This document shows, in pieces, positions 29,744 to 62,844 of a DNA stretch of 64,000 nt. A model generated the notes under the pieces. The model was not told where the DNA came from, made no database searches, and worked only from the letters and a program-made list of their open reading frames with translations. Source of the stretch: Thiotrichales bacterium 19S9-11 (lineage in GTDB: Bacteria; Pseudomonadota; Gammaproteobacteria; Francisellales; Francisellaceae); the NCBI GenBank assembly GCA_021713395.1, contig JAKJJT010000003.1:124001-188000 (forward strand). The letters run 5' to 3'. Position numbers and translations under genes: made by a program. Numbering within the stretch: position 1 is the stretch's first letter; every line of letters begins with the position of its first letter.

Positions 29744-30100
29744 TTACGCTCTAATTGGCTTACGAGGCCCTTTGCGCGTACGTGCATTTGTCTTCGTACG
29801 CTGTCCTCGGACAGGCAAGTTTCTACGATGACGACGGCCACGATAAGTACCTAAGTCCATTAAACGCTTAATGTTCATAGACACTTCACGACGTAGATCA
29901 CCTTCTACCGTATAAGATGCAACTTCACCACGTAAAGCTTCTAGCTGCTCTTCTGATAGTTCTTTAATCTTTACTCGCGGATCAATTTTCACTGATTCAC
30001 ATATTTTGATCGCTCTTGGACGACCAATACCATATATTGCAGTTAACGCAATATCAGTATGCTTATGATCTGGGACATTAACGCCTGCTATACGGGCCAT
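29744..30100 (-). CDS. rpsM: 30S ribosomal protein S13
   Basis: 118 aa; head protein contacting tRNA and the large subunit. Seen: '[20 protein letters not shown]', the helix-hairpin 'IYGIGRPRA' and the basic tail '[20 protein letters not shown]'. AGGAG precedes the ATG. Separated by 97 bases from rpmJ, enough for a promoter and leader. Confidence 0.98.
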
Positions 30101-30143
30101 TCACAAATCTCCTAAAGTTTTTTAGTTAAAATTATTACCCATT

Positions 30144-30171
30144 CTTATAAGGATCACTCAAGATATAACAA
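30144..30171 (-). promoter_or_regulatory. Possible promoter of the alpha operon (before rpsM)
   Basis: On the minus strand TTGTTA, a 16-base spacer and TATAAG lie in the 97-base gap between rpmJ and rpsM, about 45-70 bases before the rpsM start. In E. coli an alpha promoter lies between the spc and alpha operons. The match is modest and the region AT-rich, so confidence is low. Confidence 0.3.
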
Positions 30172-30197
30172 ACTGATTAAAAAATCAAGATTATTAA

Positions 30198-47542: not shown

Positions 47543-48637
47543 TTAGCTTAAACTCTTCATTAGACTTGGCTCTAGTTCATCTAACCAAGCTAAAATACCA
47601 CCTCTAAGATTATAAATATTAGAAAAACCCAAGCCAAGTAAATATTGGCACGCTCTAGCGCTACGCACACCACTTTTACAATAAATAATTGTTAAAACTG
47701 ACTTATCTAATTCATCTATATGATGCTCTAAATCAGCAAGTGGAATATGTAAGCCACCAATATGATATAATTCTCGCTCATAAAGTTCACGCACATCAAT
47801 TAAACAAAATTCTTTTTTATCATCAAAAAAGTTTTTTAATTGATTTACATTCAATACTTGTAACACTGGTTTAACTTCCTTTTCAGAAAAAGATACTTGC
47901 TGGTGTAAATAACAATCTTGTTTATTAATTTTAAACTGATTAAAGCGCATCGATAATAAATCAATACTTAATAAAGTCCCTGATAAAATATCACCTTTCT
48001 CTAATATGATTTTAATAACTTCTGTTGCTTGTATTGTTCCAGCAATGCCTGGTAAAACACCTAAAACACCACTAACCGCACAGTTAGGTGTTAGTTTTAC
48101 TGGTGGCGGAGCTGGATATAAACACTGATAACAAGGCCCTTCTTTATAATTAAAGACACTAATTTGCGCATCAAACTGATAAATACTTGCTGATACCATT
48201 GGTTTTTTAAGTTGACGCGTGACCGCATTAATTAAATAACGTGCTTGATAATTATCGGTTGCATCAATAATCACATCAAACTGTGAAATAATACCTAATG
48301 CTTTTTTTTCTGTTAGAAATTGATCATAAACTTTGAATTCAACTTGATCATTAAGCCCTTGTAATTGCTTAGCAATAACTTTTGCTTTATTTTTACCAAT
48401 ATCTGCTTCTTTAAATAAGACTTGTCTTTGCAAGTTGCTTATCTCAACTACGTCACCATCAACAATACCAAGTCTACCAATACCTGCAGCTGCTAAATAC
48501 TGTAAAACTGGACAGCCTAAACCACCTGCACCAATACATAGTACCTTTGCCTTTTTTAGTTTCTCTTGTCCTTTGATACCAATAACGGGGAAGTGGCGAT
48601 TATAACGTAAAACTTCTTTTCGATTTAGAAAAGACAC
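47543..48637 (-). CDS. moeB: MoeB/ThiF-type E1 adenylyltransferase with C-terminal rhodanese domain
   Basis: A 364-aa fusion like eukaryotic MOCS3. The N-terminal E1 domain (1-245) carries 'VLCIGAGGLGCPVLQYLAAAGIG' (core GxGGLGxxxxxxLAxAGVG), 'DATDNYQARYLIN' and a catalytic-region 'NCAVSGVLGVLPG'. A zinc CxxC is only partly kept ('CYQCLYP' present, second pair unclear). The rhodanese domain (265-360) has active-site Cys in 'IYCKSGVRSA'. It would adenylate and sulfurate the C-terminal glycine of the adjacent MoaD-like protein. Confidence 0.88.
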   Translation of the reverse strand: MSFLNRKEVLRYNRHFPVIGIKGQEKLKKAKVLCIGAGGLGCPVLQYLAAAGIGRLGIVDGDVVEISNLQRQVLFKEADIGKNKAKVIAKQLQGLNDQVEFKVYDQFLTEKKALGIISQFDVIIDATDNYQARYLINAVTRQLKKPMVSASIYQFDAQISVFNYKEGPCYQCLYPAPPPVKLTPNCAVSGVLGVLPGIAGTIQATEVIKIILEKGDILSGTLLSIDLLSMRFNQFKINKQDCYLHQQVSFSEKEVKPVLQVLNVNQLKNFFDDKKEFCLIDVRELYERELYHIGGLHIPLADLEHHIDELDKSVLTIIYCKSGVRSARACQYLLGLGFSNIYNLRGGILAWLDELEPSLMKSLS

Positions 48638-48639
48638 TC

Positions 48640-48909
48640 TCAGCCTCCAGCCAACGCTGTGACTAATTCTATTTCATCGCTATGATTTAATACTCGGTTT
48701 TTGGTTATTTCTTTAATACTTTCACCATTTAAATAAAGATTTACATAAGGATTAAGCATTTTATTTTCATCTAAAATTATTTGCCTTAACCTTGGATATT
48801 GCTTGCATAGCTCAGATAATAACTCTTCTGAATTTTCAATATCTAAGCTAATCTTTTGTTGATTATCTACAAACCTTGCTAATGATGGATGAATATAAAT
48901 TTCTGGCAT
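48640..48909 (-). CDS. MoaD/ThiS/CysO-like sulfur-carrier protein
   Basis: An 89-aa beta-grasp protein ending in the functional Gly-Gly ('ELVTALAGG'), the site of thiocarboxylation. Conserved 'NPYVNLYLNGESI' is closer to CysO-like carriers than to ThiS. It ends two bases before the MoeB-rhodanese gene, its likely activating enzyme. No moaE, thiG or Mec+ gene is nearby, so the sulfur acceptor (molybdopterin, thiazole, cysteine or tRNA) is open. Confidence 0.85.
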   Translation of the reverse strand: MPEIYIHPSLARFVDNQQKISLDIENSEELLSELCKQYPRLRQIILDENKMLNPYVNLYLNGESIKEITKNRVLNHSDEIELVTALAGG

Positions 48910-48937: not shown

Positions 48938-50125
48938 TTATGCCCCAATTGGAGGATTTGGCAAAATAAAACCATCTTTTTTTATTAGCTGAATACAAGC
49001 ATCAACTGCTTCTTTATCATAACGAATACCAATGCCACTTTCTAATTCATGTATTGTTTCAGAAAGACTTTTTGACGGGCGATATGGGCGATGTGAACTC
49101 ATCGCCTCAAAAACATCAGCAACTGAAATAATTCGAGTAGATAGTGTTATTTTTTCTGCAGTTAAACCATATGGATAGCCAGAGCCATCAAGACGTTCAT
49201 GATGATGTAAAACAGCCCCACTAATCGTCTGATTAAAAGGTACTTGCTGAGCGATTTTATAACCTTCTTCTGGATGTGTTTTGATTATCTCAAATTGAAG
49301 CTTAGTTAACTTTAACGGCGTCGTTAATATCTGAGGTGGGACGCTTGTCTTTCCAATATCATGTATCAACCCACCCAAATAAATATCATTCACTTGCTCT
49401 TTAGAAAGTCTCATTTTCTGAGCAATTGCTTCAGATAATACAGCAACACGATACTGATGGCCTGCTGTATAAGGGTCATGTGCTTCAGCGGTTGTTGCAA
49501 TTGCTTGAACTGCTTTTTTCATTAACTCTTTCATTTCATTTAGTGTTTGCTTTAATCTCTCTGTTTTTCTTTCTACTTCCTTATTAAGTGCTTGCCCATA
49601 CTGCTTAAGTCGATCATTTTTTATAATAATTTTTTCTTTTTGAGCTTTATTTTCTAAAACCATTGCAACAACAATCGCAATATTATTAATTGCAATATCC
49701 AATAAATTTTTACTTGTTTGATTAGTAAATTTTATTGCTAAATAACCATATAATTCATCAACACTTAAAATAGGGTAAAAATCAAACCCATGTTCTTGAA
49801 AAAAAGAAAAATGTTGATCAAATTGTGCTTTTGATAACCTACCATTTTTTAAAATAATATCCCCAAAGATTTTTGAAGTAAGCCCTTCTGTTTCTGTTTC
49901 TGTTTCTGTTTCTGTTTCTGTTTCTGTTTCTGTTTCTGTTTCTGTTTCTGTTTCTGTTTCTGTTTCTGTTTCTGTTATCAGTATTTCAAAGACTTCAATT
50001 CCATTGATTGTACTTAGCAATCTAGATAAATATTGTTTTAATAATTTAGAGTCATTTAAAGTATAAATAACCGTTGTTTCTGTAAAAAGTCTTAATAGTT
50101 CTCCTGTTTGATAATCACTTGTCAT
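48938..50125 (-). CDS. HD-GYP cyclic-di-GMP phosphodiesterase with N-terminal GAF-like domain and Thr-Glu repeat
   Basis: A 395-aa signalling enzyme. Residues 1-165 look GAF-like and are interrupted at 51-80 by fifteen Thr-Glu pairs. A coiled coil follows (about 166-205), then an HD-GYP domain (about 210-390) with metal-binding 'GLIHDIGK' and 'HHHERLDGSGYPYGL'. The motif set is complete, so c-di-GMP hydrolysis is expected. The 'AEAHDPYTAGHQYRV' entry is typical. Its start overlaps the end of the MEDS gene by 11 bases (CATGACAAGTGA), so the two are translationally coupled and probably function together. No GGDEF protein is in the window. Confidence 0.9.
   Translation of the reverse strand: MTSDYQTGELLRLFTETTVIYTLNDSKLLKQYLSRLLSTINGIEVFEILITETETETETETETETETETETETETETETEGLTSKIFGDIILKNGRLSKAQFDQHFSFFQEHGFDFYPILSVDELYGYLAIKFTNQTSKNLLDIAINNIAIVVAMVLENKAQKEKIIIKNDRLKQYGQALNKEVERKTERLKQTLNEMKELMKKAVQAIATTAEAHDPYTAGHQYRVAVLSEAIAQKMRLSKEQVNDIYLGGLIHDIGKTSVPPQILTTPLKLTKLQFEIIKTHPEEGYKIAQQVPFNQTISGAVLHHHERLDGSGYPYGLTAEKITLSTRIISVADVFEAMSSHRPYRPSKSLSETIHELESGIGIRYDKEAVDACIQLIKKDGFILPNPPIGA
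49886..49975 (-). repeat. Perfect hexanucleotide tandem repeat, 15 copies (Thr-Glu codons)
   Basis: Fifteen uninterrupted copies of ACAGAA on the coding strand inside the HD-GYP gene. The unit is a multiple of three, so gain or loss of copies changes protein length by two residues each but never the frame. Such pure tracts are prone to slipped-strand change in copy number. Confidence 0.97.
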
Positions 50126-50753
50126 GTTTATGCCTTTGATGATATGCAGCTAAAAATTCATCGGTTGACGTATAGGCTGGATTTTTTACTACTTGGCCTC
50201 TAATCACCATTAAAGGATGTACTTGTAGAATATCATATATAAAGTCACCATCAAATTTTGTTGCATCATATTGGCACAATGCTGTAATTGGCGTATTATC
50301 AACAACACGATTAACACGAGCTTCATACTCAATTAAATCTTCACAACCAGGGATAGATCTTGTTGCCCACCCCATTTCCCCTGTTATTCGAACACCAGCA
50401 TATCCTTGATCATCAGTTGATGAATGGTAGAAACCAACTAGTTTTTCTAATACATTATTAAATTTAAAGCTTCCATCTGGAAAATAAACATCAGCGGTTT
50501 TAGAAATATCAATTTGTTTTGGATCTGGCATATCAATACCTAACTCTAATAGCCAAGATTCGAGTTCTTTTGGTGATAGTAAGTCAGCAAAGTATGCTAT
50601 TTTTTCATTAATTAATAACCCTGACTCAATATATTTTGACATAAAGCTACGTCGTTCATGCTCATCTTGATAGATAAAACAAATATGCGCACCAGCTGAA
50701 GATTCTATATTTGCAAACCCTAAAGGTATATGTTTTTTCTTATCCTTGCACAT
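50115..50753 (-). CDS. MEDS-domain (DcmR-type sensory) protein
   Basis: A 212-aa cytoplasmic protein made almost entirely of a MEDS domain, a RecA-like fold first noted in methanogen and methylotroph sensors (DcmR). Seen: 'AHICFIYQDEHERRSFMSKYI', 'INEKIAYFADLLSPKELESWL', 'GYAGVRITGEMGWATR' and 'CQYDATKFDGDFIYDILQVHPLMVI'. It probably senses a small hydrophobic or redox signal for the coupled HD-GYP. The start is uncertain: ATG 50753 gives a clean domain edge but a weak ribosome site; GTG 50807 would add 18 residues. Confidence 0.82.
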   Translation of the reverse strand: MCKDKKKHIPLGFANIESSAGAHICFIYQDEHERRSFMSKYIESGLLINEKIAYFADLLSPKELESWLLELGIDMPDPKQIDISKTADVYFPDGSFKFNNVLEKLVGFYHSSTDDQGYAGVRITGEMGWATRSIPGCEDLIEYEARVNRVVDNTPITALCQYDATKFDGDFIYDILQVHPLMVIRGQVVKNPAYTSTDEFLAAYHQRHKHDK

Positions 50754-50863
50754 AAAGATTTTTCTTAATCTATAATAAAATACTTTGTTATAAACTAAGA
50801 ATTGCACAAAAAAGTAAAATTCACAATGAGAGACAGGGCTCGTTAAGAACTATTGCCATTTTT

Positions 50864-61734: not shown

Positions 61735-62844
61735 ATGGCTAGTAAAAATAAAAAGCCGCAAAAAGAAAAGAAAGCAGATACAACAAATCAAAATCTACGT
61801 TTAGCTGAGATTCAAAAACTAGATATGAGCAAATGGACGACTGAAAAAAAAATAGCTTTAATATCTATAGCTGTTGAGCTTGAAATCAACCTAATTGAAA
61901 ATAATGTATATTACTATAATGATAAATATCAAAAACTTCAGGCATTGCTTAAGGAATTAAGTGACAACGTGATAAACACAGATAAATTTAAATCACTTAC
62001 TGATAAGGAAAAAAACTCTTTAAAAAAACCTATCGCCAAACGCATTAAAGAAATTCACACTCTGCTTATAGATCAAAAAAAAGCATACGAAGAAGCACTT
62101 AAAAAAGAGACTAGCCAAAAACGCTATGACAACCTATGCTCTATGGAACAAAATATAATGCCACTGGCACCTGAAATTGCTGAGGCCATTATAAAGACAA
62201 AAAAAGAAATTATGGCTAAGATCGAACTTGGAAAAATAGCAGAAATAGATTGTCCTTATGCCTGTTTATCGAAACTGCAAATCCTAAATAGTAAGCAATA
62301 CGAAGATAAAAACACCACTAATGCTATAAGTCTTGCAATTGAGTCATATAAAAAAATCATTACCAAAAACACTGAAAGTGAAATAAGCAAAGAAGAAAAT
62401 CTGTATAAAAAATGTGATATTTCCTTAAAGGGGCTTAAAGCTACCAGAGGTTATGAGCCTCTATTAAAAACTCTAGCTGTAGTGCTTAACTTAATGTTAT
62501 ACCTAGAGGAATCAAACTCACTTGAAGAAACAAAGGCGTCTGGTTACTCTATAGACCTTTCTTTTATTGATAAATTAAAAATACTACAGCAAATAAAAAG
62601 CGTAGTCGGCGAAACTGAAGAGTTAAAAAAATTAAGACAATGTCTATTAAATAGTAAAAATTATCTTACACCTACTGGTAAAATTGTTACATTTGACTGT
62701 ACATATAAACCTAGCAGGGATACAAGTAATTTAAAAACTATAACTTTACCACCAAGTCTCTTATTAAAAGAAGAAATGGATGGCATTGATCAAGAAGAAG
62801 ATATTGATCAAAAAGAAGATAATAATTTAATGACGCTTGACTAA
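61735..62844 (+). CDS. Hypothetical lysine-rich, coiled-coil-like protein
   Basis: I do not recognise this 369-aa protein. The first 25 residues are lysine-rich and disordered ('KNKKPQKEKKAD'); the middle (30-300) is mostly helical with many Lys/Glu and heptad-like leucines ('LAIESYKKIITKN'); the tail is strongly acidic ('EEDIDQKEDNN'). No signal peptide, membrane segment or known motif. Start: ATG 61735, with AAAGGGG ten bases upstream. Together with the next gene it forms a plus-strand unit of unknown function in an otherwise conserved neighbourhood. Composition is like that of some effectors of intracellular bacteria, which is only a resemblance. Confidence 0.6.
   Translation: MASKNKKPQKEKKADTTNQNLRLAEIQKLDMSKWTTEKKIALISIAVELEINLIENNVYYYNDKYQKLQALLKELSDNVINTDKFKSLTDKEKNSLKKPIAKRIKEIHTLLIDQKKAYEEALKKETSQKRYDNLCSMEQNIMPLAPEIAEAIIKTKKEIMAKIELGKIAEIDCPYACLSKLQILNSKQYEDKNTTNAISLAIESYKKIITKNTESEISKEENLYKKCDISLKGLKATRGYEPLLKTLAVVLNLMLYLEESNSLEETKASGYSIDLSFIDKLKILQQIKSVVGETEELKKLRQCLLNSKNYLTPTGKIVTFDCTYKPSRDTSNLKTITLPPSLLLKEEMDGIDQEEDIDQKEDNNLMTLD

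Follow-up and report, generated by a model that had tools for sequence, protein, structure and literature searches.

The window analysed here, a stretch of 64,000 nucleotides from Thiotrichales bacterium 19S9-11, carries a gene for an HD-GYP protein with a pure hexanucleotide array that begins 150 nt inside its open reading frame (Table 1). The end of the MEDS-domain gene overlaps the start of the HD-GYP gene by 11 nt, and the ThiS-like and ThiF-rhodanese genes are neighbours on the same strand, for which we claim no functional link. Elsewhere in the window, the alpha-operon ribosome binding site leader (Rfam RF00140) lies at 30068-30185 (-), and an 18-mer is present in two copies, 94% alike, at 62785-62821. 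The leader is the sole Rfam match at gathering level in the window, and an RNA element at the array is thus unsupported.

Table 1. Genes and repeat at the HD-GYP locus (positions in the window).
Feature	Position	Strand	Basis
(ACAGAA)15, pure hexanucleotide array, translated as (Thr-Glu)15	49886..49975	(-)	Repeat finding and translation
HD-GYP protein, 395 aa, HD_5 at residues 211-372, array at residues 51-80	48938..50125	(-)	ORF and Pfam
MEDS-domain protein (PF14417), directly upstream of the HD-GYP gene	50115..50807	(-)	ORF and Pfam
ThiS-like gene, downstream of the HD-GYP gene	48640..48909	(-)	ORF and Pfam
ThiF-rhodanese gene, downstream of the HD-GYP gene	47543..48637	(-)	ORF and Pfam

The host protein was assigned by its HD_5 domain (PF13487, E 1.1e-35), N-terminal of which Pfam gave nothing convincing; the array therefore lies outside the catalytic domain, as an earlier note on this DNA had stated. 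HD-GYP proteins are recognized here by the HD diad, the HHExxDGxGYPxxxxxxxI motif, and further metal ligands, and the host has both HDIGK and HHERLDGSGYPYGLTAEKI. It aligns to the HD-GYP part of PmGH (PDB 4mcw) over residues 198-378 (E 6.8e-28). Read from this alignment, in which the numbering of the chain and that of the paper differ by 6, seven of the eight metal-ligand positions of PmGH are kept in the host (H189, H221, D222, H250, H276, H277, and D305), while the eighth, Glu185, is a Tyr. The subfamily with Tyr or Phe at the Glu185 position was predicted to hold two metals (PMC4159591; this and all other papers are cited from parts of their text). Judging from its sequence, the host is probably a two-metal HD-GYP phosphodiesterase. 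The earlier note had called it a c-di-GMP phosphodiesterase, of which the HD-GYP part holds by PF13487, but c-di-GMP is only a candidate substrate: the best PDB sequence match is 5z7c, a 3'3'-cGAMP phosphodiesterase. Because 11 GGDEF matches, two of them within one ORF, were found in this genome, a c-di-GMP network is likely, and the idea of an enzyme without such a network can be dismissed.

Tandem Repeats Finder reported 15.2 copies of period 6 with 100% match at 49886-49976, and the reverse complement of the tabulated interval consists of exactly 15 copies of ACAGAA with zero substitutions, as the earlier note had read it. Its pure tandem units, a multiple of three in length and contained in an ORF, make it an in-frame coding microsatellite. 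The 6-bp unit reads Thr-Glu and keeps the frame, as also claimed before, and an on/off phase-variable contingency locus is thereby ruled out. In the 27 ORFs of the window, ACA accounts for 47% of the Thr codons and GAA for 66% of the Glu codons, so that the probability of finding all 15 Thr-Glu pairs encoded by ACA GAA is ~2.5e-8, which indicates that the string grew as DNA. The same figure counts against selection for the peptide itself, by which an acidic string would bind a partner or space domains and the purity of the DNA would mean only a recent origin; we consider this improbable.

The earlier note had placed the array in the middle of a GAF-like sensory region, a description that found no support in the sequence and profile searches. 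Pfam gave no GAF match in the host or in the six relatives described below, profiles of the N-terminal region found no GAF structure in the PDB, and the single-sequence AlphaFold model of the host (mean pLDDT 35.7) is too poor for reading a fold. What does resemble the GAF-helix-HD-GYP layout of PmGH is the order of parts, and only this. Relatives of the N-terminal region were recognized through the MEDS gene. A MEDS match was absent from the 29 other family genomes but present in 6 of 274 genomes of the class (E up to 0.001) and in 9 of 398 genomes of the phylum (E up to 1e-12), this genome being included in each count. We viewed 13 non-self MEDS loci and checked nine of them for partners (L273-L276 were left out of this count). 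In six, the MEDS gene is followed by a sensor sharing the N-terminal region; in L272 it is followed by another protein, which was kept out of the alignment, and L287 and L288 are without a sensor partner of this type. The host itself stands directly after a MEDS gene and has the N-terminal region common to these relatives, and it is accordingly treated as a MEDS-linked sensor.

None of the six MEDS-linked relatives has a Thr-Glu string. The segment at its place varies in length and composition among them, in a register that is set around the array by MAFFT alone, at 17-21% identity of the relatives to the host. The earlier note had proposed asking whether relatives lack the insert, and all six of these distant N-terminal relatives do. 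Only L271 matches the N-terminal region of the host by BLAST (E 4e-6 over host residues 117-175, after the array; E 2.4e-5 in a second search), and the other five are linked to the host through gene order and their resemblance to L271 (21-39% identity); on these sequence grounds we regard the kinship as distant. A close orthologue of the whole HD-GYP protein was not found among 87 genomes. One match in G056 spans host residues 51-206 (E 8.9e-5; a match by sequence only), and the remaining ones fall in the HD-GYP part or in stretches of low complexity or helical character. The match in G002 at host residues 44-83 was rejected as an orthologue because it is a Thr-Gln array, and the N-terminal matches in G130 and G209 were rejected as a receiver plus HD-GYP protein matched through a helical linker and a membrane-like protein (ORFs judged by eye). 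A scan of the named genome contigs likewise found no relative of the full HD-GYP protein.

A pattern of four ACAGAA copies was found at two places in this genome, of which the window array is the longer. The second array (C28:49317-49394) has 13 copies, is read in the same frame as Thr-Glu, and falls within the acidic tail of a protein of the ProQ family (PF04352, E 3.1e-22), the gene of which stands directly before prfC (identified by reading). A ProQ match was obtained in 29 of the 30 family genomes, and the best frame of each was read, some being fragments (second ProQ-like matches in this genome, G001, G002, and G017 were excluded). After the conserved RYVGD, none of the 28 frames other than that of this genome shows a dipeptide repeated five times. 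When two mismatches were allowed, one further ACAGAA place appeared among the 30 family genomes, in G008; since the reversed control pattern gave three places, in G011 and G018, we take the G008 place as noise. The earlier note had missed both the ProQ array and the genome-wide repeat pattern. The purity of the window array, together with a ProQ array that has no counterpart in 28 family frames, makes ongoing expansion or contraction plausible. That two proteins of the same genome contain the Thr-Glu peptide is what selection for the peptide would predict; against this, the relatives read for both the HD-GYP host and ProQ are without a Thr-Glu string.

The draft state of the assembly (29 contigs) and the occurrence of two arrays built of ACAGAA also raise the question of an artefact, in which two loci sharing 78 identical bases would have been given a wrong copy number or wrongly joined. 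Usual reads are longer than either array. Moreover, both flanks of the window array align to one sensor region in the relatives, and ProQ, up to its array, matches its own relatives. We regard an artefact as very improbable.

About 35% of this genome was sampled for repeats: 712 kb for pure arrays (at least 18 nt and three copies), including the window and L009, and 706 kb for a separate count of runs with at least 15 matched bases, from which L009 was excluded because it had been fetched for its ProQ array. Eleven pure arrays were found in the 712 kb (period 5, one; 6, five; 9, three; 12, one; 13, one). There was one (period 6) in 400 kb of G001 and six in 254 kb of G002 (period 6, three; 8, two; 12, one), and one G002 protein that came up as a search hit contains two further hexamer arrays, one Thr-Gln and one Ala-Ser. 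The controls were 400 kb of other family genera, with three pure arrays (periods 4, 6, and 18), and 713 kb of named gammaproteobacterial loci, with eleven (period 6, one; 7, nine; 13, one); the latter are 80 prfC-centred loci, the best 80 of 587 confirmed places, and are unmatched in composition. Their nine heptamer arrays are located in L090, L094, L100, L109, L114, L119, L128, and L157, and those in L090, L100, and L114 start 78-104 nt past the end of the prfC match.

In the run count, periods 1-15 gave 17 runs in the 706 kb (the window array included) and none in the chance control, which was one first-order Markov resample of the same 706 kb. Runs rather than loci were counted, and several may share one degenerate region. 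Their periods were 5 (one), 6 (three), 9 (eight), 12 (four), and 13 (one), so that 15 of the 17 have a period of 6, 9, or 12 (14 of 16 without the window array). No long run of period 1-4 occurred in the 706 kb, and no trinucleotide run with even 12 matched bases occurred in the sampled part of this genome. The named control also had 17 runs, but period 7 accounted for nine of them, and periods 9 and 12 together for only four. Long hexamer arrays numbered one in 400 kb of G001 and one in 400 kb of other family genera. Because the named loci are unmatched and the hexamers of G001 equal those of the family control, we claim only the pattern of periods and not an excess of hexamers over the family. 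In a large survey with other thresholds, trinucleotide repeats outnumbered all others in the genomes of prokaryotes and in their coding regions (PMC12699852). As a separate observation, homopolymers of at least 11 nt were absent from the 706 kb of this genome, compared with 15 in the one Markov resample.

The frames of 16 coding arrays were compared, 14 of the genus and two of other family genera, with two short coding arrays excluded (three hexamers in L168 and three nonamers in L245). Their peptides are TE, TE, KE, S, SE, SSP, EKQQ, Q, TQ, AS, N, N, QP, PT, KD, and KDNKNN. Mean hydropathy is -2.42 in the frames used versus 0.16 for random stop-free frames, and none of 100,000 draws was as low, although some arrays share one protein and the 16 are thus not all independent. 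Hydropathy is negative in 15 of the 16, the Ala-Ser array (+0.5) being the exception; the used frame is the most hydrophilic one in 6 of the 16, and both Thr-Glu arrays rank third of six. The five arrays of period 4, 5, 8, or 13, which come from this genome, G002, and the family control, lie outside frames of >70 aa or only touch their edge. The coding strand of 14 arrays contains 49% A on average versus 34% in the 27 window ORFs, with values below 30% in three of the 14. Predominantly hydrophilic frames would also be expected if the peptide were selected, but the other arrays encode quite unlike peptides (KE, SE, SSP, N, Q, TQ, and AS).

Some of the array-bearing proteins deserve mention in their own right. 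L181:2-3589 of this genome encodes a large ankyrin-repeat protein with a duplicated internal block and two arrays, one of hexamers read as Lys-Glu and one of nonamers read as poly-Ser. Poly-Asn is encoded by 21 copies of AACAAT in G002 (L213:15989-17272) and poly-Gln by CAGCAA units in G001 (L198:12940-13155); both homopolymers are thus built from six-base, two-codon units and not from triplets.

We think it rather likely that the window array is a young, slippage-grown, in-frame hexanucleotide microsatellite with a unit too large for mismatch repair; this genome appears to carry several young insertions of in-frame repeats, of which it would be one. We infer its youth from its purity and the ProQ parallel rather than from a close orthologue, and its instability from one strain. 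A mutator origin, with mismatch repair lost, is ruled out by intact genes: mutS and mutL were each found in 6 of 6 genomes tested, with matches over nearly the whole profiles. The MutS protein of E. coli repairs loops of up to about four nucleotides (PMC5427490). Slippage would make loops of one unit, and loops of at least 6 nt may escape MutS; if so, and since the frame is kept only by units divisible by three, a unit must have at least six nucleotides to satisfy both demands. Such a loop-size limit fits the period spectrum. Arrays would then persist where the frame gives a mostly hydrophilic peptide, as the frames observed above do, presumably since loops and tails tolerate such peptides. 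In the host, the Thr-Glu string would lengthen a variable segment of the MEDS-linked sensor region before the HD-GYP phosphodiesterase, and the variation of this segment among the relatives suggests tolerance. Copy changes may alter the sensor segment while the gene stays on, and their effect is probably small.

The array might instead be a tuning knob, along the lines of the earlier note, in which selection keeps the copy number variable and so grades the sensor response and HD-GYP output. The in-frame array does sit in the regulatory half of a signalling enzyme, the 11 GGDEF matches make a c-di-GMP network likely around it, and in G005, of another family genus, a pure Lys-Asp hexamer array stands before the kinase part of an apparent sensor histidine kinase (domains judged by eye). 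Mismatch repair genes of Salmonella are switched by small tandem repeats, including a 6-bp mutL allele (PMC2955026). However, the length of the segment already varies among relatives, arrays also occur in proteins unrelated to the host, some of which lack any known domain, and the coding hexanucleotide repeats of Haemophilus influenzae were constant in length in four genomes, with no tie to phase variation (PMC2651432). We therefore consider tuning possible but unlikely. A broader conjecture extends slippage growth to the genus, which would have a genome-wide supply of in-frame arrays adjusting the length of the hydrophilic loops and tails of regulators, such as the HD-GYP enzyme and ProQ, and of large ankyrin-type proteins, limited by the loop size of its own mismatch repair and yielding graded rather than on/off variation, as a bacterial counterpart of the Borg elements discussed below; we offer it with even less confidence than tuning.

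Taken singly, the array is ordinary and belongs to an already known kind, the in-frame coding repeats. If such arrays are unstable, each one provides a regulatory protein in a natural series of lengths, which would show whether frame-keeping repeats tune bacterial signalling. The period spectrum, taken with the intact state of mutS and mutL, offers a testable footprint of a loop-size limit of mismatch repair combined with frame selection. No title or abstract opening in the literature seen describes such arrays in the family of the host or a floor on unit size in bacteria, which does not prove their absence. Like the host, PmGH has an N-terminal region, a helix, and an HD-GYP part (PMC4159591; PDB 4mcw); it differs in Glu185, which is Tyr in the host, and in its GAF domain, to which no homology was found in the N-terminal region of the host. 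The coding hexamers of H. influenzae also lie within ORFs and keep the frame, but their constant length was established over four genomes, whereas the present array is known from one (PMC2651432). The six-base repeat of Salmonella mutL is likewise short and located in a gene, with copy changes by slipped-strand mispairing; it converts functional and defective alleles into each other, whereas here 15 copies lie in a variable segment (PMC2955026). The closest published parallel is found in the Borg elements, where in-gene repeats have units divisible by three and are near-perfect, recent, and commonly disordered (PMC9879509); our arrays were judged by hydropathy alone. Borg repeats are A-rich (48.4% A versus 38.4%; PMC9879509), as are the 14 arrays here on average (49% versus 34%). 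Borgs are archaeal extrachromosomal elements (PMC9879509), whereas the present arrays belong to a bacterial genome: a Borg-type carrier is ruled out by the 220-kb contig and the 2.05-Mb assembly with mutS, mutL, and the alpha-operon leader in the window.
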